A stretch of DNA of 64,000 bases, taken from positions 43,906 to 107,905 of the forward strand of contig CAJFHC010000001.1 of assembly GCA_904378045.1 (NCBI GenBank). Reading direction: 5' to 3'. Each line of letters opens with the position of its first letter. Position 1 is the first letter of the stretch. The translations under genes and the position numbers were made by a program. Below are positions 2,904-39,591 of this stretch, piece after piece. The notes under the pieces are model-generated. The model did not search any database. It was not told the origin of the DNA and saw only the letters and a program-made list of their open reading frames with translations. This DNA is from Candidatus Metalachnospira gallinarum (lineage in GTDB: Bacteria; Bacillota; Clostridia; Lachnospirales; Anaerotignaceae).

Positions 2904-2906
2904 TTG

Positions 2907-3570: not shown

Positions 3571-3589
3571 AAAATTATGAATCTTTTGA

Positions 3590-4834: not shown

Positions 4835-4949
4835 ATTTATTTTCCTTTCATATATCTGTCGTTTATATCAAATAATATTATAAATTTAAAAAAACCGTGC
4901 CGCAAGGCGAACGGAAAAATTTTATGCTTCTTTCGTTTCTAAATTCCCA

Positions 4950-4979: not shown

Positions 4980-5028
4980 AATTCTGCGAAAGGATATTTC
5001 GCAAGCCGATGTTCAGGGAAGTGAGATT

Positions 5029-6078
5029 TTGAAAAAAGTCGGAAGATTTTTGATTTTGCCTTTATTCGCGGCGGCGGTATCTTTCTTTCCGGTTTCTCTG
5101 AACGGAGGGGAAAGCGAGGCTGTCGCGGCTGCCGTCAATACGGATGAAAGGCTGCTCATACCGGGCGGACAGGCCGTAGGCATAACGCTTGAGAGCGAAG
5201 GCGTGCTTGTTCTTGGCACGGGAAACGTCACCGGAAGCGACAGACGCATATATACTCCGGCAAAACAGCTTCTTAAGGAGGGAGACCTCATACTTGAGGC
5301 CAACGGCGCGCATATGGACGACAAGGAGGCTCTGGAGACGGCCATCAGGGAATGCGGAGACGTTCTTGAGCTTACCGTCGTAAGAGACAACAGGGAAATA
5401 AGCGTCGAATTGAGCCCGGTAAAAAGCCTTGAGGATGGAAGCAATAAAATAGGCGTATGGGTAAGGGACAGCACCCAGGGAATAGGGACACTTACCTATA
5501 TCGACCCGGAGGACAACAGTTTCGGAGCCCTCGGCCATGGAATATATGACGCCGACACGGGCAGCCTTATGGCGCTCAAAAGCGGAGAGGTCGTTGAAAG
5601 CCGTATTACGGGCATCGTAAAAAGCGAGAAGGGTTCTCCCGGAGAGCTGAAGGGTGTCCTTAACAAGGAGAGCGTACTCGGCGAGATAGCCGAAAACAAT
5701 GAATGCGGCATATACGGCAGTCTTGAGTCATCAGCGGCTGAAAGCCTTTATACCGAGGCGATACCGATAGCGGAGGCCGAGGATGTCAGAACCGGAGACG
5801 CCGTCATACTGTGCTCCGACGGAGACGGGAATATCGGGGAATACGCCATAGAGATAGAAAGCGTTGACCCGAACTATTCCAGCGACGACAAGGGCATGGT
5901 GATCCGGATAACCGATGACAGGCTTAAGGACAGCTCCGGCGGCATAGTACAGGGCATGAGCGGCTCGCCCATAATCCAGGACGGTAGACTTGTGGGGGCG
6001 GTGACACATGTTTTCATAAGGGAGCCGGATAAGGGTTATGGTATATTTATTGAAAACATGCTAAAAAACGATATTTAA
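5029..6078 (+). CDS. spoIVB: SpoIVB sporulation serine peptidase
   Basis: SpoIVB is secreted from the forespore into the intermembrane space, where it signals through the SpoIVFA/SpoIVFB complex to start pro-sigma-K processing in the mother cell. This 349-residue protein has an N-terminal signal/anchor helix (residues about 5-24), a PDZ domain (about 50-125) and an S55 peptidase domain. The catalytic His lies in GALGHGIYD and the Ser in QGMSGSPIIQDG near the C-terminus. The start is a TTG at 5029 preceded by a GGAAGTGAG-like ribosome-binding site. No spo0A gene follows, although the two are adjacent in many Firmicutes; a long repeat element and mmuM come next instead. Confidence 0.93.
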   Translation: MKKVGRFLILPLFAAAVSFFPVSLNGGESEAVAAAVNTDERLLIPGGQAVGITLESEGVLVLGTGNVTGSDRRIYTPAKQLLKEGDLILEANGAHMDDKEALETAIRECGDVLELTVVRDNREISVELSPVKSLEDGSNKIGVWVRDSTQGIGTLTYIDPEDNSFGALGHGIYDADTGSLMALKSGEVVESRITGIVKSEKGSPGELKGVLNKESVLGEIAENNECGIYGSLESSAAESLYTEAIPIAEAEDVRTGDAVILCSDGDGNIGEYAIEIESVDPNYSSDDKGMVIRITDDRLKDSSGGIVQGMSGSPIIQDGRLVGAVTHVFIREPDKGYGIFIENMLKNDI

Positions 6079-6151
6079 AATCGCAGTCGCAAAAGGAATC
6101 CGCAGTACCTTTTCGATACGGGGCGGGGCGGCGGAAGCCGCCCTCAGCGTG

Positions 6152-6179
6152 TCGAAAAAGTCCTTCGGGACTTTTTCGA
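6152..6179. terminator. UUCG-loop hairpin, probable spoIVB terminator
   Basis: TCGAAAAAGTCC (6152-6163) and GGACTTTTTCGA (6168-6179) form a perfect 12-base stem closed by TTCG, an exceptionally stable RNA tetraloop. The T-rich 3' arm could serve as a terminator for spoIVB, and the symmetry would let it work on both strands. Confidence 0.6.
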
Positions 6180-6185
6180 GTTTAA

Positions 6186-6299
6186 ATTAAGGCAATAAAT
6201 CCCTATTTCTGCGGAAAGCCCTGAACTTTGTCAGGGCGCAGAATTAAGGCAATAAATCCCTATTTCTGCGGAAAGCCCTGAACTTTGTCAGGGCGCAGA
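6186..6299. repeat. Two tandem copies of a 57-bp hairpin unit
   Basis: Units at 6186-6242 and 6243-6299 are identical. Each contains nested inverted repeats: GCCCTGA-actttg-TCAGGGC inside, with TTCTGC and GCAGAA outside. The transcript of each unit would form a long, nearly continuous stem. Confidence 0.9.
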
Positions 6300-6304
6300 A
6301 ATAC

Positions 6305-6403
6305 GGGATTTTCCTCGACGGAAATGAATTCCGCCTGCGGATTAAATTCAGGAAACGCTTCGTTTCCCGAACCCTTCCGCTCACAATGGATTAGTTTTTT
6401 GAC
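6305..6403. repeat. 99-bp intergenic repeat, copy 2
   Basis: This is 98/99 identical to positions 1-99, in the same orientation. It includes the GGAAACG-CTT-CGTTTCC hairpin (6351-6367). The identity ends abruptly at TTTTTTGAC on the right, where this copy runs into the GGGCGGC hairpin module and copy 1 runs into the HNH gene's 3' end. Confidence 0.92.
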
Positions 6404-6499
6404 AGTCTGGGGGCGGCGGAAGCCGCCCTGTACATAATGACGGTTCGCTGTTATTATTATATTAATACTCTGATAATAATATCATCGGGGAGGACGGAT

Positions 6500-7429
6500 A
6501 TGGACAGATTTTCAAAGCTCATTGAGAAGAAAGGACTGGCGGTACTTGACGGGGCTATGGCCACCCAGCTTGAGGCGAGGGGATGCGACATAAACGACGA
6601 GCTTTGGTCGGCTAAAATGCTCGCGGAAGCTCCCGAGCTCATAGAAGCCGTGCATCTTGATTATTTTGAGGCCGGAGCGGATATAGGAACATCGGCAAGC
6701 TATCAGGCCACGGTGCCGGGATTTATGAAAAAAGGCTTTTCCAGAGAGGCGAGCGAGGCTCTCATAAAGAGGTCTATGGAGCTTCTTATAAGCGCCAGAG
6801 ATAAATATCAGAAAGAGCATCCGGAGAAGGAGCTGCTCACGGCCGCGGCCGCTGTAGGCCCTTATGGGGCATATCTTGCCGACGGCTCGGAATACAGGGG
6901 AGACTACAGAGTGGACAGGGGCGCCATAGAGGCGTTCCACAGGGAAAGAATGAGCCTCCTGACGGAGGCAGGAGCGGATATACTTGCCTGCGAGACACTG
7001 CCCTGCCTTTGGGAGGCGGAGATAATACTTGACGTGGCTAAGGAGCTTGACGCGCCCTGCTGGTTCAGTTTCAGCTGCCGCGACGGAGCGCATATAAGCG
7101 ATGGAACGCCCATATCAGAGTGCGCCAAAAGGCTTGACGGCGAGGACATTGTTAAGGCTGTGGGCGTAAACTGCACAAGGCCGGAATACATTTCTGAGCT
7201 TATAGAAAACATAAGATCGTCCTGCTCAAAGCCGGTCGTTGTCTATCCAAACAGGGGAGAGGAATACGATCCGGTCAGAAAAATATGGCTCGGAGCGAAA
7301 AACGCCAAGGATTTCGGAGCGTGGACGGAGGAATGGTACGGCAGGGGAGCGTCCGTAATAGGCGGATGCTGCCGGACAACGCCCGGTGACATCGCTAAGG
7401 CCGCGGCTTTCAGAAACAGAATAATATAA
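6500..7429 (+). CDS. mmuM: Homocysteine S-methyltransferase
   Basis: This 309-residue (beta/alpha)8-barrel enzyme transfers a methyl group from S-methylmethionine or S-adenosylmethionine to homocysteine, giving methionine. The three zinc-binding cysteines of the family are present: C225 in VNCTRP, and C290 and C291 in GGCCRTTP. The N-terminal LDGAMATQLEARG segment is also typical. The ATG at 6500 follows GGGGAGG; an upstream in-frame ATG at 6437 would add 21 unlike residues and has no good ribosome-binding site. It is monocistronic, ending in a terminator at 7469-7511. No S-methylmethionine permease (mmuP) is adjacent. Confidence 0.92.
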   Translation: MDRFSKLIEKKGLAVLDGAMATQLEARGCDINDELWSAKMLAEAPELIEAVHLDYFEAGADIGTSASYQATVPGFMKKGFSREASEALIKRSMELLISARDKYQKEHPEKELLTAAAAVGPYGAYLADGSEYRGDYRVDRGAIEAFHRERMSLLTEAGADILACETLPCLWEAEIILDVAKELDAPCWFSFSCRDGAHISDGTPISECAKRLDGEDIVKAVGVNCTRPEYISELIENIRSSCSKPVVVYPNRGEEYDPVRKIWLGAKNAKDFGAWTEEWYGRGASVIGGCCRTTPGDIAKAAAFRNRII

Positions 7430-7468
7430 TTCAATAAGACAACGGATAGTCTATCCGTTTGTGCCATC

Positions 7469-7511
7469 AAAGGATCTCTATTTGGCTAAGGCGAAACAGA
7501 GGTCCTTTTTT
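7469..7511 (+). terminator. mmuM terminator
   Basis: AAAGGATCTCT (7469-7479) pairs over 11 bases with AGAGGTCCTTT (7498-7508), with one G-T pair, and is followed by TTT. A smaller hairpin, AACGGATA-GTC-TATCCGTT, lies just upstream at 7441-7459. Confidence 0.75.
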
Positions 7512-7673
7512 AAATTTTAAGCATAACAGGCCATGAAAAAATCTTTTGCAAATATAGCGCGGATTTAACTTTGATTCGCGATTTTATAAGTAAAACGGCT
7601 GTAAGAAGTCTGGGATTTTAAATTTTTGGGGATAATATAAAATATAGGTTAAATAAAATCAAAAAGAAATCGG

Positions 7674-7729
7674 TTTAACGAAGATTTAACATAAATTTGG
7701 TTGGGAATTTAACCGAAACTTTATATACT
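7674..7729 (+). promoter_or_regulatory. Pho-box-like array and promoter of the pst operon
   Basis: TTTAAC occurs at 7674-7679 and 7685-7690 (11-base period) and again at 7708-7713, two helical turns further on; another copy lies upstream at 7564-7569. Direct repeats of TT-A-AC type at about 11 bases are how PhoP/PhoB-type regulators bind. A -10 TATACT (7724-7729) follows a weak TTGGGA at 7701-7706, fitting an activator-dependent promoter. The PhoB-type regulator is encoded at the end of the same cluster, so autoregulation is likely. The remaining bases between 7512 and 7673 are AT-rich with no gene. Confidence 0.65.
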
Positions 7730-7803
7730 GTACCCGTACCTCAAAAGGGGCAGCAAAATAAAGATTGTAAAAACATTTTATTAAATTAAAGGAGTATTTG
7801 AAA

Positions 7804-8706
7804 ATGAAGAAGAAAATTTTAGCTTTACTTACAGCATCTGTGATGGTACTTGGCGTTGCGGCTTGCTCATCATCAACAGAGGAAACGACAACAGAAGGAG
7901 AAACAACAGAAGAAACAACTGAAGAGGGTTCGGGAATGACAGGCGCTATCTCGGTTATCTCCCGTGAGGAAGGTTCAGGAACAAGAGGAGCTTTCGTAGA
8001 GCTCATGGGCGTTGTTGACGAGGATGACAACGATATTACTACGGTAAACGCTGAGATCACAAACTCAACATCAGTTATGCTTACAACTGTTGCAGGAAAC
8101 CCCGCTGCAATCGGATATGTTTCACTTGGCTCACTTTCAGATGACGTTAAGGCTGTTAAGGTTGACGGAGTTGCCGCTACAGTAGAAGACATCAACAACG
8201 GAACATACAAAGTAGCAAGACCTTTCCTTGTTGCTTACAAAGACGGAAGCCTTACAGACGTTGCTCAGGACTTCCTCAACTTCATCATGAGTGATGACGG
8301 ACAGGCTATCATTAATGAAGAAGGTTACATCAGCGTTGCAGAAGGAAACACATATACGGCAAGCGGAATGACAGGAAGAATCGTTCTTGCAGGCTCAACA
8401 TCAGTTTCACCTGTAATGGAAGTTCTTGCTGACGCTTACAAAGCTCTTAACCCCGATGTAACAATCGAGATTCAGCAGACAGGTTCAGGCGCAGGTATCA
8501 CATCAGCAATCGAGGGAGTTTGCGACTTCGGTATGTCATCTCGTGCCCTTACGGATGAAGAGGCTGCTGAGCTTGTAAACACTCAGATCGCTACAGACGG
8601 TATTGCGGTTATAGTAAACAACGAGAATCCCGTTGAGGATATGACATCAGACCAGATCAAGGGAATCTACCTTGGAGAAATCACAGACTGGTCAGAGATC
8701 CAGTAA
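7804..8706 (+). CDS. pstS: Phosphate-binding lipoprotein PstS, circularly permuted order
   Basis: This 300-residue lipoprotein (lipobox VAAC, then a Thr/Glu-rich linker) captures phosphate for the PstCAB importer. The two halves of the usual PstS fold are in swapped order. The segment that normally comes late (ISREEGSGTRGAF through ARPFLVAYKDG to DDGQAIINEEGYI, residues about 45-180) comes first. The normally early segment (AGSTSVSPVMEVL, TGSGAGITSAIEG, then IATDGIAVIVNNENP and ITDWSEIQ, about 195-300) follows. The phosphate-binding SGTRG and GSTSV/SGAG loops are all kept, so the protein should work. The ATG at 7804 sits 9 bases after AGGAG. Codons are mostly GTT, ATC and CTT types, suggesting very high expression. 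Confidence 0.9.
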   Translation: MKKKILALLTASVMVLGVAACSSSTEETTTEGETTEETTEEGSGMTGAISVISREEGSGTRGAFVELMGVVDEDDNDITTVNAEITNSTSVMLTTVAGNPAAIGYVSLGSLSDDVKAVKVDGVAATVEDINNGTYKVARPFLVAYKDGSLTDVAQDFLNFIMSDDGQAIINEEGYISVAEGNTYTASGMTGRIVLAGSTSVSPVMEVLADAYKALNPDVTIEIQQTGSGAGITSAIEGVCDFGMSSRALTDEEAAELVNTQIATDGIAVIVNNENPVEDMTSDQIKGIYLGEITDWSEIQ

Positions 8707-8732
8707 TCAAAACAGAACATAAAATAAAAAAG

Positions 8733-8765
8733 ATTAAACCGCCCGGATCGACCCGGCGGTTTAAT
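8733..8765 (+). terminator. Hairpin between pstS and pstC
   Basis: ATTAAACCGCC (8733-8743) and GGCGGTTTAAT (8755-8765) form a perfect 11-base stem but lack a long T tract. It is probably a partial terminator or 3' stabiliser that keeps pstS mRNA in excess over the membrane components. Confidence 0.7.
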
Positions 8766-8812
8766 TTGCGAAAAACGGACTTCTTTGTTTTTACTTGATA
8801 GGAGAGAACTTT

Positions 8813-9658
8813 ATGAGAGCAAGAGAAGAAATAATGCGAATAGTGTTCCTGCTCTGCGCCTGCATGTCCATTGTGGCGGTAGCGGCGATATGCTTGTTTA
8901 TGTTCGCCAACGGATTCCCGGCGATGGCGGAGATCGGCTTCGGCAAATTCCTTCTTGGAACCGAATGGAGACCCGGCCAGGAACTCTTCGGAATATTCCC
9001 GATGATAATCGGAAGCATTTATGTAACGGCCGGAGCAATTATATTCGGAGTTCCCGTCGGCATACTGTGCGCCGTATTCCTCGCGCATTACTGTCCCAAA
9101 GGGCTTTATACGATATTAAAACCCGCCGTTGACCTGCTCGCCGGCATACCTTCAATAGTGTACGGCTTCTTCGGCCTCGTCGTGATCGTTCCTGCGATGC
9201 AGGCTGTTTTCAGAACCAGCGGAAAGGGAATACTTACAGCGTCCCTGCTTCTTGGAATAATGATACTTCCCACGATCATAAGCGTTACGGAGGCGTCGCT
9301 CAGAGCCGTGCCCGAGGCATACTTCGAGGGCTCCCTCGCCCTTGGCGCGACAAAGGAGAGAACTATTTTCAGATCGGTAATGGTTGCGGCTAAATCCGGA
9401 GTAATGAGCGGCGTTATACTTGGAGTTGGACGCGCCATCGGAGAGACAATGGCCGTTATCATGGTTGCCGGAAACCAGGCGGCCATACCGGACAGCGTTC
9501 TCAAGGGAGTAAGGACTCTTACGGCAAACATCGTTCTTGAGATGGGTTACGCTTCAGGACTTCACAGGGAGGCGCTTATTGCCACGGCTGTTGTGCTTTT
9601 CGTGTTCATACTTATTATAAACGTGTGCTTTTCACTTGTTAAAAGGAGGAACGGATAA
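8813..9658 (+). CDS. pstC: Phosphate ABC transporter permease PstC
   Basis: This 281-residue membrane protein has about six helices. The AGIPSIVYGFFGL motif near residue 110 and the coupling-loop sequence EGSLALGATKERTIF near residue 175 are characteristic of PstC. It pairs with PstA to form the phosphate channel. The ATG at 8813 is preceded by AGGAGAG; an in-frame TTG at 8795 lies before that site and is rejected. The last codon overlaps the pstA start (TAATG), indicating translational coupling. Confidence 0.95.
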   Translation: MRAREEIMRIVFLLCACMSIVAVAAICLFMFANGFPAMAEIGFGKFLLGTEWRPGQELFGIFPMIIGSIYVTAGAIIFGVPVGILCAVFLAHYCPKGLYTILKPAVDLLAGIPSIVYGFFGLVVIVPAMQAVFRTSGKGILTASLLLGIMILPTIISVTEASLRAVPEAYFEGSLALGATKERTIFRSVMVAAKSGVMSGVILGVGRAIGETMAVIMVAGNQAAIPDSVLKGVRTLTANIVLEMGYASGLHREALIATAVVLFVFILIINVCFSLVKRRNG

Positions 9659-10497
9659 TGCAGAAGTTAAAGGAATACACAAAACATCCCGGTTCCTTCA
9701 TCGTATTTATACTTATTATTCTGGCGACGATCATAACGGTCGGAACAATGCTTTTCCTTGTGGCCTATATACTTTTAAAAGGCATACCGAACATAACGCC
9801 CCAGCTTTTTGAATGGGAATATAATTCGGATAACGTCTCAATGATGCCGGCCATAATCAACACGGTCCTTATGACCGGGGCAACACTGCTTATGGCAGTC
9901 CCCATTGGAGTTTTTTCCGCTGTATATCTTGCGGAGTACGCAAAAAAAGGATCAAAATTAGTTAAGCTCATAAGGGTGACGGTGGAGACGCTTTCCGGTA
10001 TACCGTCCATCGTATACGGCCTTTTTGGATTCCTTGCCTTTGTTGTGGCGCTCAAATGGGAATATTCGTTCATATCCGGATCGATTACGCTCGCGATAAT
10101 GGTTCTTCCTCTCATAATGAGGACTACGGAGGAAGCGATTATGGCTGTACCGGATTCTTATAGAGAGGGCTCCTTCGGACTGGGAGCCGGCAAACTGAGA
10201 ACCGTGTTCAGGATAGTCGTTCCCACGGCTATGCCCGGTATACTTTCCGGAGTAATACTCGCCATAGGAAGGATCGTCGGAGAGACGGCCGCACTGATTT
10301 TTACGGCGGGAACAACGGCCGCTGTTCCGAAAGATATTTTCTCATCCACAAGAACGCTTGCCGTTCATATGTACTGCCTGCTTTCCGAGGGACTTTATAC
10401 GGAACAGGCCTATGCCACGGCTGTAATACTTCTTGCGATGGTAATTATAATCAACGCCTTGTCCAGTTTCTGCGCCAAGAAACTTACTAAGAAATAA
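9658..10497 (+). CDS. pstA: Phosphate ABC transporter permease PstA
   Basis: This 279-residue membrane protein has six predicted helices. It carries the same SGIPSIVYGLFGF motif as PstC (near residue 113) and the coupling loop REGSFGLGAGKLRTVF near residues 168-183 that contacts PstB. It is third in the pstSCAB-phoU operon, overlapping pstC by one base and followed by pstB after 12 bases. Confidence 0.95.
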   Translation: MQKLKEYTKHPGSFIVFILIILATIITVGTMLFLVAYILLKGIPNITPQLFEWEYNSDNVSMMPAIINTVLMTGATLLMAVPIGVFSAVYLAEYAKKGSKLVKLIRVTVETLSGIPSIVYGLFGFLAFVVALKWEYSFISGSITLAIMVLPLIMRTTEEAIMAVPDSYREGSFGLGAGKLRTVFRIVVPTAMPGILSGVILAIGRIVGETAALIFTAGTTAAVPKDIFSSTRTLAVHMYCLLSEGLYTEQAYATAVILLAMVIIINALSSFCAKKLTKK

Positions 10498-10509
10498 CGG
10501 AGGGACAAC

Positions 10510-11259
10510 ATGAGTAAGATAGAAATAGAAAATATGAAACTTTATTACGGCGACTTCGAGGCCATAAAGGGCATAGACCTTTCCATTCCCCCCAACGAGA
10601 TAACGGCCTTCATAGGACCGTCAGGATGCGGAAAGTCAACGGTGCTCAGATCGCTCAACAGAATGAACGACCTTATCGAGGACTGCAAAATAACGGGTAA
10701 AATAATGCTTGACGGCGAGGATATTTACGGAAATATGGACGTAAACCTTCTCAGGAAAAGAGTCGGAATGGTTTTCCAGAAGCCCAATCCTTTCCCCATG
10801 AGCATTTACGATAATATCGCCTACGGCCCCAGAACCCACGGCATACACTCAAAAGTAAAACTTGACGAGATAGTTGAGAAATCCTTAAGGGACGCGGCAT
10901 TGTGGGACGACGTTAAGGACAGGCTCAAAAAGAGCGCCCTTGACATGAGCGGAGGCCAGCAGCAGAGACTTTGCATAGCCAGAGCGCTTGCGGTAGAGCC
11001 GGAAGTTCTGCTTATGGACGAGGCTACAAGCGCCCTCGACCCTATTTCCACATCAAAGATCGAAGACCTTGCTATGGAGCTTAAAAACAAGTATACTATA
11101 GTCATGGTAACGCATAATATGCAGCAGGCGGCCAGAGTATCGGACAAGACCGCGTTTTTCCTCCTCGGAGAGGTCATAGAGTTCAACGATACGGAAACAC
11201 TGTTCTCGATGCCAAGGGACAAGAGAACGGAGGACTATATAACAGGGAGGTTCGGCTAA
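10510..11259 (+). CDS. pstB: Phosphate ABC transporter ATP-binding protein PstB
   Basis: This 249-residue ATPase powers phosphate import. It shows Walker [10 protein letters not shown] (about residues 36-44), the signature [15 protein letters not shown] (about 145-160), Walker [14 protein letters not shown] and the switch His in [14 protein letters not shown]. The [13 protein letters not shown]-loop segment is specific to PstB. A good GGAGGG site precedes the ATG. The TAATG overlap with phoU couples the two genes. Confidence 0.97.
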
Positions 11260-28817: not shown

Positions 28818-29372
28818 TCAGTCATCCATAAGCCGGCTCACATTCTCATACAGTTCTTTTTCCTCATCGGCTCCGGTGGTTTTATCGATTATAAGCGATA
28901 AAACGATTATACCTAAAATGTTTGATAAGAATCTGACAACGGTAAATTTTATACCGAGCTGAGACGCCTCGAAAAGAGTCATAGGTATTTTTACAGCCGA
29001 CCATGCTCCTAAAAACATAAACACATTAAAAAGAGAAACGCCCTTTTTTATGAACATTCCGGCGATTGGAAAAGCGGCGTAAAGAGGACCGGACGAGAAG
29101 GAGCCGAGGGCAAAGGCAATCAGTCCACCCATAAATCCGGAGCCTTTGCCAAGATATTTCATCATCGCGCTTTTGGGTATCCATACGTCCATAAGCCCCA
29201 TGAGCATAAAAATCGGAGGAACTACGCAAAGCATTTCCAATATATAATCCGCGGTCAGCGAAAATGATTCTTTTCCCGTGCCGGGGCTGATCAAAAGCAA
29301 AGAAGCGTCAAAAATAAATATAAAAATAAGAAATTTGTGCTTTAAAAGTTTATCCTCAAATTTTTTTATCAT
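28818..29372 (-). CDS. UPF0718-type permease, second half-size subunit
   Basis: This 184-residue membrane protein has about five helices. Segments GGLIAFALGSFSSGPLYAAFPIAG and the preceding ILEMLCVVPPIFMLMGLMDVW are typical of the UPF0718/DUF318 permease group, whose studied members include the organoarsenical exporter ArsP. It overlaps the upstream subunit by four bases (ATGA), so the two are translationally coupled and probably form one transporter. The ATG at 29372 is supported by that overlap; a longer in-frame extension to 29507 lies wholly inside the upstream gene and is rejected. The substrate is not deducible. Confidence 0.8.
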   Translation of the reverse strand: MIKKFEDKLLKHKFLIFIFIFDASLLLISPGTGKESFSLTADYILEMLCVVPPIFMLMGLMDVWIPKSAMMKYLGKGSGFMGGLIAFALGSFSSGPLYAAFPIAGMFIKKGVSLFNVFMFLGAWSAVKIPMTLFEASQLGIKFTVVRFLSNILGIIVLSLIIDKTTGADEEKELYENVSRLMDD

Positions 29373-29845
29373 ATGATCACTCCAATAATGCATGAAGCAG
29401 CGACAGAGGCTGCAAGTGACAGCAGGTTCCTTTTTAAAGATATTCTTTTCCCGAAGTATTTTGACTCCAAAGGAAATGTCGCTATACCGACCATCATTAA
29501 CGTGCAAATAAACAGAGCTATCTGCGCGTATCCGGCTCCGGCGCCGATTAAAGAGGCGGCAAGCGGAAAGGCGACAAAACCGGGTATGAGGGTTATGCAG
29601 CCTGCCGCCCCGGCTATGATCATTCCTTTTACCCCGGATTTTGAACCAAGTAACGTTGAAATCATTTCTTCATCGAAAACGGAGAGCAATATCCCTATAA
29701 GAAGCAGGATGGAAAGCATTGACGGAAGTATATTTATGAAAGCTTTACCCGCTTTTATCAATGAGGCTCTTGTTTTCTGCCTGTCTTTGCAAAAAGATAC
29801 GCAGAGGGATATGGCTGCCGCCAAATATAAAAATATTGCGAACAT
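29369..29845 (-). CDS. UPF0718-type permease, first half-size subunit
   Basis: This 158-residue membrane protein has four helices. The central LIPGFVAFPLAASLIGAGAGY segment (about 97-118) parallels the SSGPLYAAFPIAG segment of its partner, consistent with an inverted or duplicated permease fold split over two genes. A GGAGGTG ribosome-binding site precedes the ATG at 29845. It is divergent from a Crp/Fnr regulator (30004), with about 160 bases between them. Related full-length permeases in other bacteria are about 300 residues in one chain. Confidence 0.8.
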   Translation of the reverse strand: MFAIFLYLAAAISLCVSFCKDRQKTRASLIKAGKAFINILPSMLSILLLIGILLSVFDEEMISTLLGSKSGVKGMIIAGAAGCITLIPGFVAFPLAASLIGAGAGYAQIALFICTLMMVGIATFPLESKYFGKRISLKRNLLSLAASVAASCIIGVII

Positions 29846-30003
29846 TCAATTTTCACCTCCATATTTTGATTGACGAAACACTGCCGCCATTCAAATGACT
29901 ATAAAAAAGTGGTATACTTTTACTGTATAAATTATATCAGACAGGAATGTTCATACTGTGTATCCGCAGATACAGTTACCAATATAATTAAGGAGTGGCG
30001 GAA

Positions 30004-30681
30004 ATGGAACGGCTTATATCAACACTATCAAAATGTCCTGTTTTCAATAATATGTCTGAAAACGAGATAGAGAGCGTCCTGAAAGAATACAAATATATGA
30101 CGGAGGCCTTTGAAAGGGGAGAGGTTATATTCCGCGCGGGGGATAAGTCCAGAAGAATAGGGATTATAATTTACGGTTGTCTGGAAATGCGAAAATATCT
30201 TCCGTCAGGCAATATTTTAAGCATGTTTCACAGAAAAGAAGGGGAAATGACAGGCGGAAGCATCGCGTTTTCAGGAAGCCCGAAATATCCCTGCGATGTT
30301 ATTGCGAAGGAGCAGAGCCGGATTTTATGGATAGACAGGGACGAAATATTTGAGATGGTTTCAAAAAACAGGAAGATAGCGACAAATATTTTGAGAATAT
30401 CGGCTGACAGGATAATGTGTCTGGAAAAGAGGATAGAACTGTTTTCCTTTTACTCCATTCGGGATAAAATAGCTTTTTCCCTTATTAACGACCTTTCAGC
30501 CCGCGAAGGCGTGGAAATAATTTTACCGTTCACGAAAACAGCCTGGGCGGAATACTTAAATGTGTCACGCACGTCTTCAAGCAGGGAGCTGAAGTCAATG
30601 GAACTTGACGGAATAATAAAGGTAAACGGAAATAAAATAATTCCGCTTGATATCGGAGAGCTTAACAAAGTGATGTGGTAA
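30004..30681 (+). CDS. Crp/Fnr family transcriptional regulator
   Basis: This 225-residue regulator has a sensor barrel (about 10-125; GDKSRRIGIIIYGCLEM) and a C-terminal winged helix (about 145-225; FTKTAWAEYLNVSRTSSSRELKSME). The ATG at 30004 is 8 bases after AGGAG; a GTG at 29995 overlaps that site and is rejected. It is divergent from the split permease and may control it. It is only distantly similar to the Crp/Fnr protein at 15881-16537; both lack the N-terminal Cys cluster of classical FNR. Confidence 0.88.
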   Translation: MERLISTLSKCPVFNNMSENEIESVLKEYKYMTEAFERGEVIFRAGDKSRRIGIIIYGCLEMRKYLPSGNILSMFHRKEGEMTGGSIAFSGSPKYPCDVIAKEQSRILWIDRDEIFEMVSKNRKIATNILRISADRIMCLEKRIELFSFYSIRDKIAFSLINDLSAREGVEIILPFTKTAWAEYLNVSRTSSSRELKSMELDGIIKVNGNKIIPLDIGELNKVMW

Positions 30682-32165: not shown

Positions 32166-32195
32166 GGAGGGCAGCCGTATATACAGCCGCTCTCC
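32166..32195 (-). terminator. Terminator of the TRAP/nitrilase operon
   Basis: Read leftward, a 30-base near-perfect inverted repeat GGAGAGCGGCTG...CGGCTGCCCTCC lies 35 bases beyond the last gene of the operon. The T tract after it is modest. Confidence 0.65.
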
Positions 32196-32229
32196 TAAAA
32201 AAGGGGAAGAATTAAATATGGAGAATTAT

Positions 32230-33138
32230 TTACAGATCTTTTTTCAGGAAACATCCATACATCCATGGACGCCTGTCTTTGAGCATGGGATATGCCGCCC
32301 TTCCGAGCCTTAGGTCGGAAGCCTTAAGCGTTCCGATAACAAGATCCTCGCTGTCAAGAACGCTTTCGGAGATTATATCGCCGAAATTGTTGATTATCTT
32401 ACTATGGCCGGCTCTCTGCCAGAGTCCTGTGTTTCCGCCCATATCGTGCTTTCCGCCGGCGGTGCAGGCAACAAAGCACATCTGGTTTTCAAGGGCTCTG
32501 ATCCTGGGAGCGGTATTAAAGAGATATTGCTTCTCCTCGCCGATGCCTACTCCGCCGCCCTTGCCCTCGGCTGTTTCCTTAGCGTCTCTTACAGCGACGA
32601 ATCCAATAAATACGCAAATTTCCGCGCCGTTTATGGCAATCATTCTTGATGACTCGGGGAAGAAGAGCTCATAACAGATTATCATTCCGATCTTTCCGAT
32701 GGATGTGTTATAAACCTTCGGCTCGGTTCCCTGTATAAAATAATCCTTTTCTATGAGCGGAAGGTGAATTTTCCTCGCTACTCCGACGAATCCTTCCGGG
32801 CCGACAAGCACGGCCGAGTTATAGGGAACCATGGTGGCCGGAGTCCTTTCGGCTATACCGAAGATAACATAGCAGCCGACTTCTTTAGCGGCCTCGATGA
32901 TCCTGTTTGTGGCCGGGCCGGGGACGGGCTCCGCTCCGAGATTCCAGTAATCGCGCCTGTTTTCCGGATTGCTTTCGCGAATATATCCGCTAATGGAAAG
33001 CTCGGGGAAAACAACGAGGTCAGGATGCTCTGACTTAAGCGAGAGAATTTTGTCAACATGATACTGAATATTCCTTTCCTTTTCATATACAGAATAAGTT
33101 TCCGCCTGTACACAAACAACCTTAAGATTTTCTTTCAT
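32230..33138 (-). CDS. Nitrilase-superfamily carbon-nitrogen hydrolase (paralogue 1)
   Basis: This 302-residue cytoplasmic hydrolase shows the Glu-Lys-Cys triad of the nitrilase superfamily: Glu in VFPELSISGY (about 50), Lys in ARKIHLPLIEKD (about 126), and Cys in GMIICYELFFPE (about 163). The superfamily cleaves amides or nitriles to acids and ammonia; the exact substrate is unknown. The ATG at 33138 is 8 bases from GGAGG. It is the last gene of the minus-strand TRAP operon and is clearly related to the hydrolase that opens it (37731-38612), sharing the E-x-x-SGY/QGYxRE and RDYW/RYWE segments. Confidence 0.88.
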   Translation of the reverse strand: MKENLKVVCVQAETYSVYEKERNIQYHVDKILSLKSEHPDLVVFPELSISGYIRESNPENRRDYWNLGAEPVPGPATNRIIEAAKEVGCYVIFGIAERTPATMVPYNSAVLVGPEGFVGVARKIHLPLIEKDYFIQGTEPKVYNTSIGKIGMIICYELFFPESSRMIAINGAEICVFIGFVAVRDAKETAEGKGGGVGIGEEKQYLFNTAPRIRALENQMCFVACTAGGKHDMGGNTGLWQRAGHSKIINNFGDIISESVLDSEDLVIGTLKASDLRLGRAAYPMLKDRRPWMYGCFLKKDL

Positions 33139-33156
33139 ATGGCAAACCTCCAATGC

Positions 33157-34428
33157 TTATTTGACAAATACCGTACATAACGAGGGAACGTATGTAAGCA
33201 CGAAGAGTATGACTATGGACGCTATGATAAACGGTATAGCCTTAGGAATGATCTCCGAGAACTTACATTTGGCAATATCGGCCGCAACATAAAGGTTTGG
33301 TCCTACAGGAGGCGTTACCTGACCGATGGAAAGGTTAACAACCGTGATAACACCGAGGTGGAGCAGGTCGATATTCAGGGCCTGAGCTATGGGGATAATA
33401 ATCGGGAGCAGTATATACATCGCCGATACACCGTCCATAAGACATCCGGCAATAAGGAATACAATGTTTATTACAAAGAGCATCACATACTTGTTGTCCG
33501 TGAGCTGGAGAGCCATGTTCGTGAGAGCCGTGGCGATTCCCTGATGGGCGAGAACGTAGGAGAAAACTCCGGCGCAGGCAACAATGAGCATGATAACTCC
33601 TGTGGTCGCTACGGATCTTTTGAGGGTTCTGATGAGCCCTTTGAAGTTCATATCTTTATAAATAAACATTCCGACGATAATGCTGTATACGGACGCTACG
33701 GCAGCGGCTTCGGTCGCCGTGAAGATGCCTCCGTAAATGCCGCCGAGGACGATAACGGGGCTCAATATTCCCCAGAAAGCGTCTCCAAGAGCCTTAAGTT
33801 TCTCTTTTTTAGTATATTTTGTTAAACTGCCTCTCCATTTGTATTTCCTTGAGTAATAGAAAACGATAACGCAGAGAGCAAGGGCGTAAAGTATACCGGG
33901 GATAAAGCCTGATATAAACAGATCGCCAATCGAAAGCCCGGTTATCATACCGTATACGACAAATGAAATACTGGGCGGTATGATCGTTCCAAGCGAGCCC
34001 GAGATGGCTGACAGAGCTCCGGAGAATGATTTATCATAACCCTCGGAGATCATGGCGGGAATAAGTATGGAGCCGACGGCGGCTACCGTAGCGGTTCCGG
34101 AACCTGATATAGCCGCGAAGAAGAGGGCAACGACGATCATAACGTATCCGAGGCCGCCGTATACCGATCCGATAAACATCTTAGCCACATTTATCAATCG
34201 CTTTGATATTCCGCCCTCGTCCATCGCCGTTCCGGCAAGAACGAAAAGGGGAATGGTAAGCAGTGTGAATTTTTCAACCGTTGATTGTAAGATCGACGGT
34301 ATTGATGTGATGGGGAACCCCGCCGTAAGCAGGGTGAAGGCGCTTGAAAGGCCGAGAGCAATGGCTATGGGTACATTCAGCACTATCAAAGCCGCAAGGG
34401 TCACAAAAAGAATTACGGTACTTGTCAT
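33157..34428 (-). CDS. dctM: TRAP transporter large membrane subunit (DctM type)
   Basis: This 423-residue protein has about twelve helices. Family marks include VPIAIALGLSSAF near the N-terminus, AISGSGTATVAAVGSILIPAM (about 107-127), the second half-repeat, and LIAGCLMDGVSAMYILLPI late in the chain. DctM is the ion-driven channel subunit of TRAP importers. It overlaps the small subunit gene by four bases and is followed by nitrilase 1 after 18 bases. Confidence 0.95.
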   Translation of the reverse strand: MTSTVILFVTLAALIVLNVPIAIALGLSSAFTLLTAGFPITSIPSILQSTVEKFTLLTIPLFVLAGTAMDEGGISKRLINVAKMFIGSVYGGLGYVMIVVALFFAAISGSGTATVAAVGSILIPAMISEGYDKSFSGALSAISGSLGTIIPPSISFVVYGMITGLSIGDLFISGFIPGILYALALCVIVFYYSRKYKWRGSLTKYTKKEKLKALGDAFWGILSPVIVLGGIYGGIFTATEAAAVASVYSIIVGMFIYKDMNFKGLIRTLKRSVATTGVIMLIVACAGVFSYVLAHQGIATALTNMALQLTDNKYVMLFVINIVFLIAGCLMDGVSAMYILLPIIIPIAQALNIDLLHLGVITVVNLSIGQVTPPVGPNLYVAADIAKCKFSEIIPKAIPFIIASIVILFVLTYVPSLCTVFVK

Positions 34429-34922
34429 TTCGCCTCACTCTCCTTTTCCTTTTCAGCCTTTTTCTTTTTGAAATATCCCTGGTAGTATCTTATTACGCAG
34501 AGTATACCCGAAAGAGGTATCATAAGACCTATGATCCAGGAGGGCATAAGAAGCACGGCGCTTCTAAGCCCAATCTGTATTTTGCTGGCGACCATTTCAA
34601 ATCCATAAATGATCATTATGGCGAAGAATATGGTGCAGAGTATATTTCTTATCCATTCAAGGACGAGACGAACCTTTCCATGCGTTCTCTCAACTATATA
34701 CTCGAAGCCGATATGGCCGTCGTCTTTAAAAACGTTGGCCGCCGCGAACATTGACACAAGCACGAAGGATGATGTAACTATCTCGTATGACCAGGCAGCG
34801 TCAAGCCCGGCTATATACCGCGCCATAGCGTTAATGAATACGATAATCATCATTATAAAGACGAATAAAGAGGCTATATCGCATTCAATATCCGATAAAA
34901 AATTCATCAGTTTTTTCTTCAT
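34425..34922 (-). CDS. dctQ: TRAP transporter small membrane subunit (DctQ type)
   Basis: This 165-residue protein has four helices. The first-helix segment FVFIMMIIVFINAMARYIAGL and ENANLxW-like AAWSYEIVTSSFVL are typical of DctQ. It pairs with DctM. The ATG at 34922 is preceded by AGGTG; a GTG at 34931 lies in that site and is rejected. The stop overlaps the dctM start (ATGA). Confidence 0.93.
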   Translation of the reverse strand: MKKKLMNFLSDIECDIASLFVFIMMIIVFINAMARYIAGLDAAWSYEIVTSSFVLVSMFAAANVFKDDGHIGFEYIVERTHGKVRLVLEWIRNILCTIFFAIMIIYGFEMVASKIQIGLRSAVLLMPSWIIGLMIPLSGILCVIRYYQGYFKKKKAEKEKESEAK

Positions 34923-34946
34923 TATTTTCACCTGCCCTTATGTAGG

Positions 34947-34969
34947 AAAGAGGGCACGAAGCCCTCTTT
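34947..34969 (-). terminator. Intra-operon hairpin after the TRAP binding-protein gene
   Basis: AAAGAGGGC (34947-34955) and GCCCTCTTT (34961-34969) form a perfect 9-base stem with a 5-base loop immediately after the dctP stop. Such hairpins often stabilise or partly terminate the binding-protein message so that it is made in excess. Confidence 0.75.
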
Positions 34970-34971
34970 AT

Positions 34972-36015
34972 TTAGTTTTTACCGGCATACGCGAGGAATG
35001 AGTCAACAACGTCAGCTCCGATAACGCCCCTGTAATCCTCATAGATCTTTTCAGCTCTCTCACGGAATGGAGCGAGTTCTTCCTCTGTAAGATCCGTTAC
35101 GGTAACGCCTTCCTCAACGAGGGACTGCTCAAGGGCTGTGTCTTCTTCGATAGAAAGCTCGTCGTAGTAATCAGCCGCTTCTTTAGCGCTTTCTGTAATG
35201 GCAGCCTGATCCTCCGCGCTTAAGCTGTTGAATTTCTCGTTATTCATAAACCATATTGTTGTATCGTAAACCATATCGTAGAGAGTGACATAAGGCTGAA
35301 CCTCGTCAAGAGCCGCTGAAGCGTAGGTCGAAAGAGGGTTCTCCTGTCCGTCGATGGTACCCTGCTGGGAAGCCGTATAAACCTCGGAGAAGTCCATAGC
35401 TACGGGGCTCGCTCCAAGTTCCTGGAACATATCGATGAACATATTGACCGAGGGAACTCTTATTACAAGGCCTTCCATATCCTCAACGGTCCTTACTTCG
35501 CGTTTGGAGTTTGAAAGCTGTCTTGCTCCGGCGTAAGCGATACAGAGGACTTTCATATTTCTTTCCTCCGACCAGGAGCTGACTTCGTCTGTCATACCGC
35601 CGTCGATGGCAGCGGCGAGAGTTTCGTAGTCATCGAAAAGCCAGGGGAGCCAAAAGGCGTTGAACCTGGGGTCAAAGTTTGCCGCCGTAACGGGTGATGA
35701 ACCGTGGATATCAATATCGCCGGCGATAAGCATTTCAAACGCTTTTACAAGGTCACCGCCGGAAAGACCACAGTTAGGATAGAGCTCAATATTGATCCTT
35801 CCGTCGGTTTTTTCGGAAACAAGTTCTTTGAATCTCTGAGCCGCCACGTCACAGGGGGAGTTCGGCGGAAGCGAATAGCTCATTCTGAGGGTAATGGATT
35901 CGCCCGATGCCGTATCGGCGCCATCGTTTGTTGTTGTCGAACCGCCTGATGAGCAGCCTGCGATACAAAGAACCGAGATGATTGCTATACTCAATAGTTT
36001 TTTAAATTTCTTCAT
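34972..36015 (-). CDS. dctP: TRAP transporter solute-binding lipoprotein (DctP type)
   Basis: This 347-residue lipoprotein (lipobox CIAGC at about residues 17-21) is the extracytoplasmic receptor. Visible DctP features are the arginine-bearing strand GLVIRVPSVNMFIDMFQELGASPVAMDFSEVY, split by normal spacing (about 165-197; the Arg binds a substrate carboxylate), and the GTIDGQENPLSTY segment (about 203-215). This implies that the ligand is an organic acid anion. GGAGG lies before the ATG at 36015. Confidence 0.93.
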   Translation of the reverse strand: MKKFKKLLSIAIISVLCIAGCSSGGSTTTNDGADTASGESITLRMSYSLPPNSPCDVAAQRFKELVSEKTDGRINIELYPNCGLSGGDLVKAFEMLIAGDIDIHGSSPVTAANFDPRFNAFWLPWLFDDYETLAAAIDGGMTDEVSSWSEERNMKVLCIAYAGARQLSNSKREVRTVEDMEGLVIRVPSVNMFIDMFQELGASPVAMDFSEVYTASQQGTIDGQENPLSTYASAALDEVQPYVTLYDMVYDTTIWFMNNEKFNSLSAEDQAAITESAKEAADYYDELSIEEDTALEQSLVEEGVTVTDLTEEELAPFRERAEKIYEDYRGVIGADVVDSFLAYAGKN

Positions 36016-36030
36016 AGTTTTTCCTCCTTT

Positions 36031-36345
36031 TTAGATATCTACGGTAATATCCATGAGCGGCATATGCTGCTGAGCGCCATAGACGTCCGTGTCACAACTG
36101 CTTCCTGATGATATTCTTCTTGGAATCGTGACTTTTATACCACTGGCTTTGTCATAATAATAAATTTTTACGCTCTCGGGATTTACTTTGTAATATCCGG
36201 CGATTTCTTTCTCATCCAGGGAACCGGAGCTTTTTACCGTTTCATATACGCCCTTGTCGTTGAAAAGAAAGTCAACCGTTAAAGTATAGGGTCCCGCGTT
36301 TTTGCTTCTTAAAATATCAGCTAAATCGGAAAGTTTCTTTTTCAT
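36031..36345 (-). CDS. DUF4387 family protein
   Basis: This 104-residue small protein starts KKKLSDLADILRSKNAGPYTLTVDFLF, which is the typical opening of DUF4387, and ends with GAQQHMPLMDITVDI. The family is usually encoded next to, or fused to, AtuA-like (DUF1446) proteins, as here, where it starts three bases after the AtuA-like gene. It therefore probably forms a complex with that protein or acts as its second domain. No catalytic motif is recognisable. Confidence 0.82.
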   Translation of the reverse strand: MKKKLSDLADILRSKNAGPYTLTVDFLFNDKGVYETVKSSGSLDEKEIAGYYKVNPESVKIYYYDKASGIKVTIPRRISSGSSCDTDVYGAQQHMPLMDITVDI

Positions 36346-36348
36346 CGT

Positions 36349-37716
36349 TTACACCTCCACTTCTTCTATGGGGAACAACTCGTTCGGATCGTCAACATCT
36401 ATCAGATGGTATATGCCGAATTTATAAACGGGCCCCATAGGAATGTCGGACGGCGAGAAGGGGATGGCTATATTTCCGCCGGTCGTACGTCTTTCGGGAT
36501 AAGGATAGTGGAGCAGGAACGACCTTGTAATGGCGCAGATGGCGTTGGCCGTTTTCTGATCCTTAGCTACAACGTCAATAACAACGCCAAGCTCGCTGGA
36601 TGTGCAGGGAACATACTCAAGATCTCCCATAACGGCGTTCTTTCCGTATACTCTGAAGTTGAGGGTATATCCGACATCTTTGCCGCTGCCCATTGTTGTT
36701 TCGGTATTTTTGGTGACACCGGCTATTACCTCGTCGATATGCTTGATCATATAAGGGTCTCTGATACCGGCGATGGAAATTGTTCTGTAGCCCTCGAGGA
36801 CGGCACCCTCCAGTTTGATTGTCCATTTGCCTTTGGCGGGATCGAACCTGGTTCCCTCGACCCTGACTTTTTTGGGATCGTTTTCATACTGTTCAAATTC
36901 ACAGTCGGTGCATATAACGGCTCCGTCGGGCTCATAGAATACGGATGGATGACCCTGTTCGTATAACGTATGAGCGGCAACGGAAACGGGGGATACGTTT
37001 CTGTCTTTGTTTACGGATTCAAGGATAAAGTCGTCCTTTCTTATGGTGGCGAACATTCCGTCGGCGCCTTCTCCCGGGGTGCAGCAGTAGGCTCCGCATT
37101 CGATGACCTTTGCCGCGTGGAATGAAAGGGCGGGGTCAAAGCCGAGCTTGATGGGAAGGCAGGCATAAATGGCCGTGTCGCAGCTTCTTCCGCCAACTAT
37201 AACGTCGGCTCCGGAGTCAAGGGCTTTGATGAAGGGGGTAACACCCATCTGTCCGACTATTCTCACGGCTTTATCGATGGTTTCTTCCGTAAGTTCGGGA
37301 ACGAAATCTCCCAGAGGATGCACTTTGCCTTCCTTAAGTTTTTTCTTTATATATTCTTTGGGAACCTCGCTGTGGATTATGGCCATTTTAAAATGGAGGT
37401 CATGTTCTTTGGCAAGTTCTTTAATAAGCCTTACTTCTCTGGCGATATGGGGCTCGCCGCCGGATGTTCCGGCCGAGCCGATGATGAAAGGTATTTTTCT
37501 GTTCACAGCGTCGGCTAAAACAAATTCCAAATCTCTTTTTACGGCCTTTTCGTCCGTAAGGGATGTGCCGCTTCCGAGAAACGCCGGGCCTCCGTCACTG
37601 GATCCGGCGTCAACGCCGATAACGTCCGGATTTTTCGCTATTCCGTTTTTATAGGAATCCGCGGGAAAGCCGTAGCCAAGCTGACCATTAAGAGCGAATA
37701 TTTTGATTTCATCCAT
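36349..37716 (-). CDS. AtuA-like (DUF1446) protein
   Basis: This 455-residue soluble protein matches the DUF1446/AtuA family, named from acyclic terpene utilisation in Pseudomonas. Family marks are DVIGVDAGSSDGGPAFLGSG near residues 32-51, SAGTSGGEPHIAREV near 81-95, VGGRSCDTAIYA near 170-181 and ECGAYCCTPGEGADG near 202-216. The biochemical reaction of the family is not established. The position between a hydrolase gene and DUF4387-TRAP genes points to metabolism of the TRAP-imported compound; no terpene-pathway genes are nearby. GAGGTGATTC precedes the ATG at 37716. Confidence 0.83.
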   Translation of the reverse strand: MDEIKIFALNGQLGYGFPADSYKNGIAKNPDVIGVDAGSSDGGPAFLGSGTSLTDEKAVKRDLEFVLADAVNRKIPFIIGSAGTSGGEPHIAREVRLIKELAKEHDLHFKMAIIHSEVPKEYIKKKLKEGKVHPLGDFVPELTEETIDKAVRIVGQMGVTPFIKALDSGADVIVGGRSCDTAIYACLPIKLGFDPALSFHAAKVIECGAYCCTPGEGADGMFATIRKDDFILESVNKDRNVSPVSVAAHTLYEQGHPSVFYEPDGAVICTDCEFEQYENDPKKVRVEGTRFDPAKGKWTIKLEGAVLEGYRTISIAGIRDPYMIKHIDEVIAGVTKNTETTMGSGKDVGYTLNFRVYGKNAVMGDLEYVPCTSSELGVVIDVVAKDQKTANAICAITRSFLLHYPYPERRTTGGNIAIPFSPSDIPMGPVYKFGIYHLIDVDDPNELFPIEEVEV

Positions 37717-37730
37717 TTTGAATCACCTCT

Positions 37731-38612
37731 TTAAATATCGACTTTTGTAAGCCTTTCATAATTTTTCGGATTTCTGTCAAGAAGGAGAGGATATACCGAT
37801 CGACCTGACATAAGATCGGCGTTGGTGAGCTCGCCGAAAATAACGTCCTCCTCTCCGTATTTTGCCTGAGCGAGAACTACACCGTAATTGTTAACGATTT
37901 TAGCAAGGCCCATAGGGCTCCACGTTCCGAGTTTAGGCCCCATATAGTGGGTTCCGACCCTGTCTCCGCCAACATAGTGAACCTGGTTTTCGATAGCTCT
38001 GCAAATTCCGGCTGTATCGAAAAATCTTCTTTTGTCTTCGCTTACTCCAACGCCGCCTCTTGAGCCTCCGCCCATTGCCGCAGCGATGTGAATAATGATT
38101 TCAGCGCCCTTAAGGGCAAGGATTCTCGCGGTTTCGGGGAAGAAAAGGTCATAGCATATCATAAGACCGATTTTTCCGAGTTTTGTCTGATATACGTTTG
38201 ATTCCTCTCCTAAAAGGAAGTAATCCTTTTCAATAGAAGCCAGATGCATTTTTCTGCTGGAGCCTACAAATCCCTCAGGCCCGACAAGGGCGATGGAATT
38301 GTATAGAAGGCCGGGAGTATTGGCTTTTTCTGCTATTCCAAAGGCTACATAGCAGTCATATTCTTTGGCCAGAGCCGCTACAAGATCGGTTGTAGGTCCG
38401 GGAAGGGTTTCCGCGGCTTCCCAGTAACGGATCTCAAAATCGAGATCCTTTTCACGAACATAGCCCTGGATGACAAGTTCCGGGAACACGATAAGATCAT
38501 TGTCCGCGCCGTATTTTTTTATGTTTTCCACAACGTGCGCGATGTTCTTTTCCCTGTCCTCAAGGCCGCCGGTTGATCCTTGAACGACAACCGTCTTAAC
38601 AACATCTTTCAT
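37731..38612 (-). CDS. Nitrilase-superfamily carbon-nitrogen hydrolase (paralogue 2)
   Basis: This 293-residue enzyme has the triad Glu in VFPELVIQGY (about 45), Lys in SRKMHLASIEKD (about 121), and Cys in GLMICYDLFFPE (about 158). It is the first gene of the minus-strand operon, starting 45 bases from the 24-bp palindrome. AAGGAGG lies 7 bases before the ATG. It is a diverged paralogue of the operon's last gene, so the two probably act on related amides, or one has changed specificity. Confidence 0.88.
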   Translation of the reverse strand: MKDVVKTVVVQGSTGGLEDREKNIAHVVENIKKYGADNDLIVFPELVIQGYVREKDLDFEIRYWEAAETLPGPTTDLVAALAKEYDCYVAFGIAEKANTPGLLYNSIALVGPEGFVGSSRKMHLASIEKDYFLLGEESNVYQTKLGKIGLMICYDLFFPETARILALKGAEIIIHIAAAMGGGSRGGVGVSEDKRRFFDTAGICRAIENQVHYVGGDRVGTHYMGPKLGTWSPMGLAKIVNNYGVVLAQAKYGEEDVIFGELTNADLMSGRSVYPLLLDRNPKNYERLTKVDI

Positions 38613-38656: not shown

Positions 38657-38680
38657 TTATATATTGTATACAATATATAA
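38657..38680. promoter_or_regulatory. Perfect 24-bp palindrome, likely GntR operator
   Basis: The half-site TTATATATTGTA (38657-38668) is mirrored exactly at 38669-38680, giving a TTGTATACAA core. It lies in the divergent gap between the hydrolase operon and the GntR gene and overlaps where the operon promoter should be. Short palindromes with a GTATAC-type core are typical of FadR/FCD-class GntR regulators. The rest of this 244-base gap is extremely AT-rich and probably holds promoters in both directions. Confidence 0.7.
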
Positions 38681-38856: not shown

Positions 38857-39591
38857 ATGCAGTCTAATCTAGGCAGAACAAGAATCGAACATACGTCTAT
38901 AACAGAAAAAGTGTCAAACTGGCTTAGAATTTCTATAATAAATGGAGATCTTAAATCAGGTACAAAGCTTACTGAGCAGAAGGTGAGCAAGATGCTTAAT
39001 GTCAGCACGACGCCAGTAAGGGAGGCGTTCAGGACTCTTGAGGCCGAGAATTTACTTATACATAATCCTTATTCCGGCGTATGCGTAGCCGAGATCTCAC
39101 CTAAATATTTGGTTGATATATGCGAGATGAGAAGATTTTTGGATATTGGAAGCTCTGATACCATAATGGAAAACGCCACGGAAGCGCATATAGAGGAACT
39201 GTATGAAATCATCGACGGACTCAGAAACTTTGACCCGATGGGCATCGGGATGGAAAAAATAGACGAGACGGAGAGATTCATAAAGGAAGAAGAAAAATTC
39301 CATCTTGGTGTCGCCAGGATAACAGGAAATATGGAGCTTGAGAATATGGAGAAAATATTGCTCAAAAAGGCTCATGTTTTCCGACTGATGCTTGTAAGCA
39401 CCTTCCCGAGCACAAACCAGATGGAACTTACTCTCAACGAGCTTGTCAGAATAACCGAGGCCATAGAAAAAAAGGACAAAAAAGCCTTTATTGACGGAGT
39501 AACCGAACATTATGGAAGGTCGGAAAGCAAAAACAGGGAGCTTATCAATCTCTTGAAGGACTACAGCGGAAAAAACGTGCTGTCGGATTGA
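38857..39591 (+). CDS. GntR-family (FCD domain) transcriptional regulator
   Basis: This 244-residue regulator has an N-terminal winged helix (about 10-80; LTEQKVSKMLNVSTTPVREAFRTLE is the GntR recognition region) and a C-terminal all-helical FCD domain (about 85-225). The metal or ligand site is suggested by the Asp of FLDIGSSD and the His residues of EEKFHLGVARITGN and TEHYGR. FCD regulators usually respond to small organic acids. Divergent orientation and the palindrome at 38657-38680 suggest it controls the TRAP/nitrilase operon. Confidence 0.9.
   Translation: MQSNLGRTRIEHTSITEKVSNWLRISIINGDLKSGTKLTEQKVSKMLNVSTTPVREAFRTLEAENLLIHNPYSGVCVAEISPKYLVDICEMRRFLDIGSSDTIMENATEAHIEELYEIIDGLRNFDPMGIGMEKIDETERFIKEEEKFHLGVARITGNMELENMEKILLKKAHVFRLMLVSTFPSTNQMELTLNELVRITEAIEKKDKKAFIDGVTEHYGRSESKNRELINLLKDYSGKNVLSD

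Follow-up and report, generated by a model that had tools for sequence, protein, structure and literature searches.

An operon joining a TRAP transporter, a citramalate-lyase-type AtuA/DUF4387 pair and two nitrilase-superfamily hydrolases in a lachnospiral genome

Glutamate fermentation by the methylaspartate pathway combines glutamate mutase, methylaspartase, mesaconase and citramalate lyase. One step of the pathway converts (S)-citramalate to acetate and pyruvate (PMC8473912). Two protein chains deposited under PDB entries 9erq and 9evf carry the names 'Citramalate lyase, subunit A (cmlA)' and 'subunit B (cmlB)', the title of 9evf being 'Citramalate lyase - ADP - pyruvate complex'; they are homologues of proteins otherwise annotated as AtuA-family and DUF4387, respectively. 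We take DUF1446 to be an older name for AtuA-type proteins. A DUF1446 gene, given there as of unknown function, lies downstream of methylaspartase (PMC4682846).

The operon analyzed here, in a 64-kb stretch of DNA (hereafter the window), has the AtuA/DUF4387 pair in common with the methylaspartate pathway, but glutamate mutase and methylaspartase are missing from it and a tripartite TRAP transporter and two nitrilase-superfamily hydrolases stand in their place. TRAP transporters take up organic-acid anions, and the two hydrolases belong to the same CN_hydrolase family, with the same Glu-Lys-Cys residues, as PaNit/PH0642, N-carbamoylputrescine amidase and formamidase. The initial annotation was aware of no described pathway with this content, and we likewise found none in the literature searched. 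The seven-gene combination occurred nowhere else among the sampled genomes and loci.

Operon layout and DNA elements

Seven minus-strand genes run from 38612 down to 32230 in the order nit2, atuA, duf4387, dctP, dctQ, dctM, nit1, opposite a divergent GntR-family gene. The features are as follows:

38857..39591, plus strand: GntR-family regulator with FCD ligand domain, divergent (Pfam GntR 2e-13, FCD 8.8e-12)
38657..38680, no strand: perfect 24-bp palindrome TTATATATTGTA/TACAATATATAA in the divergent promoter gap, candidate operator
37731..38612, minus strand: nitrilase-superfamily hydrolase 2 (nit2, first operon gene; Pfam CN_hydrolase 2.1e-43)
36349..37716, minus strand: AtuA-family protein, homologue of citramalate lyase subunit A (9erq_A, E 1.4e-116; Pfam AtuA 5.8e-23)
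36031..36345, minus strand: DUF4387 protein, homologue of citramalate lyase subunit B (9erq_B, E 6.9e-26; Pfam DUF4387 2.4e-34)
34972..36015, minus strand: DctP TRAP solute-binding lipoprotein (Pfam 2.4e-75)
34947..34969, minus strand: hairpin of 9 pairs between dctP and dctQ (folding z -1.8)
34425..34922, minus strand: DctQ TRAP small membrane subunit (Pfam 9.2e-24)
33157..34428, minus strand: DctM TRAP large membrane subunit (Pfam 7.7e-114)
32230..33138, minus strand: nitrilase-superfamily hydrolase 1 (nit1, last operon gene; Pfam CN_hydrolase 1.7e-38)
About 32166..32196, minus strand: terminal hairpin followed by T-rich CTCTTTATT (folding z -2.9)

Gene content, order, tight spacing and the divergent regulator all matched the initial annotation, with Pfam naming all seven operon products and gaps ranging from -4 to +49 bp. 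Measured from the best start codons, the gaps were 14 bp (nit2-atuA), 3 bp (atuA-duf4387), 15 bp (duf4387-dctP), 49 bp (dctP-dctQ) and 18 bp (dctM-nit1), with a 4-bp overlap between dctQ and dctM; nit1 probably starts at 33138, not at 33153. This spacing suggests that the seven genes are co-transcribed. Both secondary structures described earlier, one after dctP and one at the operon end, were also present. The first carries no strong T tract on the operon strand and, with a folding z of -1.8, is therefore just modestly better than shuffled sequences; it may adjust dctP expression relative to dctQM. The second is the probable operon terminator.

The gap between gntR and nit2 measures 244 bp and is AT-rich (17% GC). 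Within it, the 24-bp palindrome TTATATATTGTATACAATATATAA, absent from the initial annotation, ends 44 bp ahead of the nit2 start. When 20,000 first-order random sequences were drawn with matching composition, 22 contained a palindrome of this length. The core TTGTATACAA occurs a single time in the window. Because T.GT...AC.A cores are typical operators of FadR-type GntR regulators, we read the palindrome as the probable operator of the GntR/FCD protein. The core was not found in the GntR-linked AtuA/DUF4387 relatives.

Elsewhere in the window, two overlapping minus-strand frames (28818-29845) resemble, by eye, a small integral membrane nucleoside-recognition (YjiG/YjiH) pair, and a regulator that by eye looks Crp/Fnr-like (29995-30681) adjoins them.

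The AtuA/DUF4387 pair and its relatives

AtuA-like and DUF4387 proteins had at first been described as having no settled reaction, a view that was not borne out. Both window subunits aligned over their full length with the deposited citramalate lyase chains (5-451 of 455 residues for AtuA against 9erq_A, 1-103 of 104 for DUF4387 against 9erq_B), at about 41-43% identity to 9erq/9evf. The window AtuA was modeled with AlphaFold2 (pLDDT 84), and the model matched 9evf_A with a Foldseek TM of 0.92 over 457 columns and a VIA-align Z of 45 (rmsd 2.6, 442 aligned); besides 9evf, VIA-align returned just a common ferredoxin-like arrangement over AtuA residues 308-430. Given the full-length homology, the same subunit A fold and the entry title, there is a C-C lyase reaction assigned to the AtuA/DUF4387 family; according to PDB names and titles, it yields pyruvate and involves a nucleotide. 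As in CmlAB, the two window subunits are adjacent; unlike in the methylaspartate-linked systems, no methylaspartate genes lie alongside.

We rejected the terpene reading of the name AtuA, as the Pfam score is weak and no partner genes were recognized in the operon. With the Pseudomonas acyclic-terpene Atu cluster the window protein shares only the Pfam name: it scores 82 bits against the Pfam AtuA model versus 393 bits against the citramalate lyase chain. Pfam recognized no other Atu/Liu-type genes in the operon, and none was recognized by eye among window ORFs of at least 250 aa. Glutamate fermentation in the source genome was likewise rejected as far as tested, a methylaspartase search having given just partial enolase-superfamily matches.

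A sample of 398 genomes from the phylum included 93 with DUF4387. We took the DNA around 96 DUF4387 sites from this sample and queried it with the window genes and with neighbors from E. coli, Prevotella, Klebsiella and Variovorax. Methylaspartate ammonia-lyase adjoined the pair in 49 of the 96 neighborhoods, accompanied in 46 by glutamate mutase and in many by fumarase (subunits); Prevotella nigrescens and E. coli provide annotated examples. These neighbors independently support a citramalate lyase function for that group. Some of the remaining 47 neighborhoods end early at contig ends. Among these 47, two (L131, L128) paired AtuA/DUF4387 with a 2-hydroxycarboxylate transporter, L131 also with a Cache-domain histidine kinase and a response regulator; another (L142) placed PrpF and an aconitase-type hydratase beside it. 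In L151, a Na+-pumping oxaloacetate decarboxylase beta subunit, a glycyl-radical enzyme and an aldehyde:ferredoxin oxidoreductase accompanied the pair. Four loci (L067, L069, L087, L102) showed the order GntR regulator-AtuA-DUF4387-tripartite tricarboxylate (TTT) binding protein, and plasmid-borne pairs occurred with RraA-type and fumarase genes. The common theme of these contexts, that of L151 with its oxaloacetate decarboxylase included, is 2-hydroxy acids. Based on the methylaspartate, 2-hydroxycarboxylate transporter and PrpF/aconitase neighbors, the family looks like one of 2-hydroxy-acid lyases.

One locus (L108) has the order DctP-DctQ-DctM-AtuA-DUF4387 and is a precedent for a TRAP transporter with an AtuA/DUF4387 enzyme. 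Nitrilase relatives were found in 0 of 115 AtuA loci by phmmer and by a profile of both window proteins and one relative; the seven-gene set is therefore not a conserved pathway unit in this sample, and one refuting outcome named in the initial annotation, homologous clusters that never keep the nitrilases, applies in part. Scans of viral contigs found nothing.

In L142 (666-8361), a PrpF-type isomerase and an aconitase-type hydratase stand in line with AtuA/DUF4387, in what looks like a pathway that would finish by cleaving a methylated or tricarboxylic 2-hydroxy acid (cf. dimethylmalate or 2-methylcitrate chemistry). The transporter adjoining the pair at L131 (6649-12364, with the Cache-domain two-component system) and L128 (6684-9737) is CitS-like, making these loci a candidate module for fermentation of citrate, malate or citramalate without citrate lyase. 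The L151 cluster (1028-10900) also includes the activase of its glycyl-radical enzyme, and the latter enzyme falls below every NCBIfam equivalog cut-off.

To place the window protein, we built a tree of 115 AtuA proteins by a quick method. The window AtuA paired with that of L151, its closest relative (50% identity, support 92), and both fell outside a 74-row clade (support 94) that contained all 59 methylaspartate-linked rows. The window branch is long (0.92), and with a quick tree its exact position is unsure. Independently of the tree, we compared 134 positions that are at least 95% invariant among methylaspartate-linked AtuA proteins. Of these, 103 are retained in the window copy and 111 in L151, set against 131 in the TRAP-linked L108 and 129-133 in L108 and plasmid members in other contexts (L018, L019). 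The 31 changes in the window copy include the cluster T10N, A11G, I12Q, P181T, A208G, I210Y, S216E and G262E; at the level of strongly conserved segments, TAILGYGFP becomes NGQLGYGFP, GGR..DPA becomes GGRSCDTA and a TPGSG-type segment becomes CCTPGEG. As the window copy lies outside the methylaspartate-linked clade and retains this share of invariant positions, the pair has probably kept its chemistry while acting on a substrate different from citramalate. A separate clade of 21 rows without methylaspartate genes (L103, L104, L111, L116, L118 and others) was also seen, in which many fewer of the positions invariant in the citramalate-lyase set are retained (76 of 134 in L103).

These comparisons bear on two other explanations. 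In the first, the operon would serve plain use of citramalate or a close C5 acid: the TRAP transporter would import citramalate for an ordinary citramalate lyase, and the nitrilases would be nitrogen scavengers sharing the promoter. The homology to CmlAB and the near-complete set of invariant positions in TRAP-linked L108 speak for it, but the window copy itself is depleted in these positions and sits outside the methylaspartate-linked clade. Moreover, the nitrilases are the first and last genes of the operon, a bracketing which suggests that they belong to the pathway; we regard this explanation as unlikely. In the second, AtuA/DUF4387 would have shifted to other nucleotide-dependent chemistry on a nitrogen-containing molecule, such as opening the ring of a cyclic amide, with the nitrilases finishing ammonia release. 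Such a shift would suit the ADP held with pyruvate in the solved relative, the several distant subclades in unlike contexts and the two C-N hydrolases in the operon. However, most of the strictly conserved citramalate-lyase-clade positions are kept (103 of 134) and the nameable contexts of other subclades are still hydroxy-acid ones, and we consider it quite improbable.

Transporter, hydrolases and origin of the block

DctP, DctQ and DctM, recognized together by Pfam, make up a complete TRAP set; DctM scored 409.7 bits against TIGR00786 (cut-off 268), and no second DctP was found in the source genome (a single genome match). The carboxylate-type arginine segment first noted in DctP is indeed there: its LVIRVPS stretch aligns with the arginine segment of solved binding proteins. 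According to PMC4646407, the conserved arginine of TRAP binding proteins binds carboxylate. DctP aligns with the carboxylate binders 4p8b, 8t9t and 7bbr, but no binding protein of close identity was found, and its ligand is therefore not transferable from known TRAP binders. Deriving the ligand from a single-sequence structure prediction was rejected (pLDDT 36).

The two flanking hydrolases are paralogues, as originally proposed, with 46% identity in an end-to-end alignment. Both keep E45, K121, E128 and C153 (Glu-Lys-Cys plus the second Glu), and these retained catalytic residues argue for C-N bond hydrolysis, be it of an amide, a carbamoyl or a nitrile group. Unlike the named members of the superfamily, the window proteins form a paralogous pair with a common loop, GGVG...RAxENQ. 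Compared with aguB, formamidase, aliphatic amidase and nitrilase, they fall far below every named-enzyme cut-off: the highest NCBIfam equivalog score was 123 bits, where the cut-off is 500. Past its catalytic Cys, nit1 carries an insertion of 7 residues, located in a loop with a possible role in shaping the pocket.

Searches for relatives of nit2 were negative for the other genomes of an order sample (392 genomes; E 1e-60), for a class sample (391 genomes; profile, 1e-50) and for the 57 other family genomes (1e-45). The phylum sample of 398 held one (44%, G393), the sole genome-search match above 40%. Its neighbors are an M20 peptidase on one side and an asparaginase on the other, with no AtuA in the adjoining stretch; this context fits amide hydrolysis, though not the window pathway in particular. 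Plasmid nitrilases were 27-35% identical among the matches listed, and no AtuA was annotated on the one such plasmid examined.

DUF4387 was found in 0 of 35 family relatives sampled. In a congener (G002), the flanking M23 peptidase and peptide deformylase genes are adjacent, with about 257 bp between them, while the same spacing is 7,751 bp in the window. As the flanking genes are adjacent in the congener and the hydrolases occur in no other family genome, the block was probably gained by the window's lineage through horizontal transfer. Direct repeats of at least 9 bp were not found at the block borders, nor was a tRNA, and no donor of the block was found. That unrelated genes came together by chance in a metagenome bin, or that the assembly is chimeric, might be suspected from the 73-contig source assembly and the absence of the hydrolases from all 57 other family genomes, but is highly improbable, as the block is internal to its contig, is flanked by genes that adjoin each other in the congener, has single-operon spacing with its own regulator, palindrome and terminator, and resembles the rest of the window in GC content.

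A tentative route and its meaning

Our preferred reading, which comes close to an even call, is a substrate-induced cassette in which TRAP uptake is followed by amide or carbamoyl hydrolysis and by a C-C cleavage that gives pyruvate or a comparable oxo-acid. The GntR/FCD protein would bind the palindrome, with the pathway acid releasing repression. The transporter, whose genes are all in place, would import a presumed organic-acid anion, and one or both hydrolases, judging from their catalytic residues, would act on an amide of the acid to liberate ammonia or a carbamoyl group. As a divergent CmlAB member, AtuA/DUF4387 would split a 2-hydroxy-di- or tricarboxylate between C2 and C3, yielding pyruvate, or some other 2-oxo acid, together with acetate or some other acid, with involvement of an adenine nucleotide. 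Pyruvate could then pass to pyruvate:ferredoxin oxidoreductase, the gene for which is present in the source genome; with this enzyme present and no other DctP in the genome, pyruvate would feed fermentation.

Of these steps, the one with the strongest support is the C-C lyase class, which homology, structure and genome context all favor; which of the amidase and lyase steps comes first is a guess. The first substrates to consider would be branched 2-hydroxy acids in the form of amides or carbamoyl derivatives. That the cassette encodes an undescribed pathway, in which such a compound is taken up, stripped of nitrogen stepwise by the two amidases and cleaved by an AtuA/DUF4387 lyase of new specificity, is a more doubtful proposition, though a plausible one. 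The dedicated route for import and processing of an organic acid outlined in the initial annotation thus stands in its uptake operon, its AtuA/DUF4387 complex and its two C-N hydrolases, and falls in leaving the reaction unassigned.

AtuA/DUF4387 genes are common (93 of 398 phylum genomes) and still annotated as terpene utilization or unknown. The evidence ties many of these pairs to 2-hydroxy-acid cleavage, and about half occur apart from the glutamate pathway, alongside different transporters and partners. The window cassette is a compact test case: with one transporter, one regulator and two amidases, it should reveal the substrate of a lyase subfamily.
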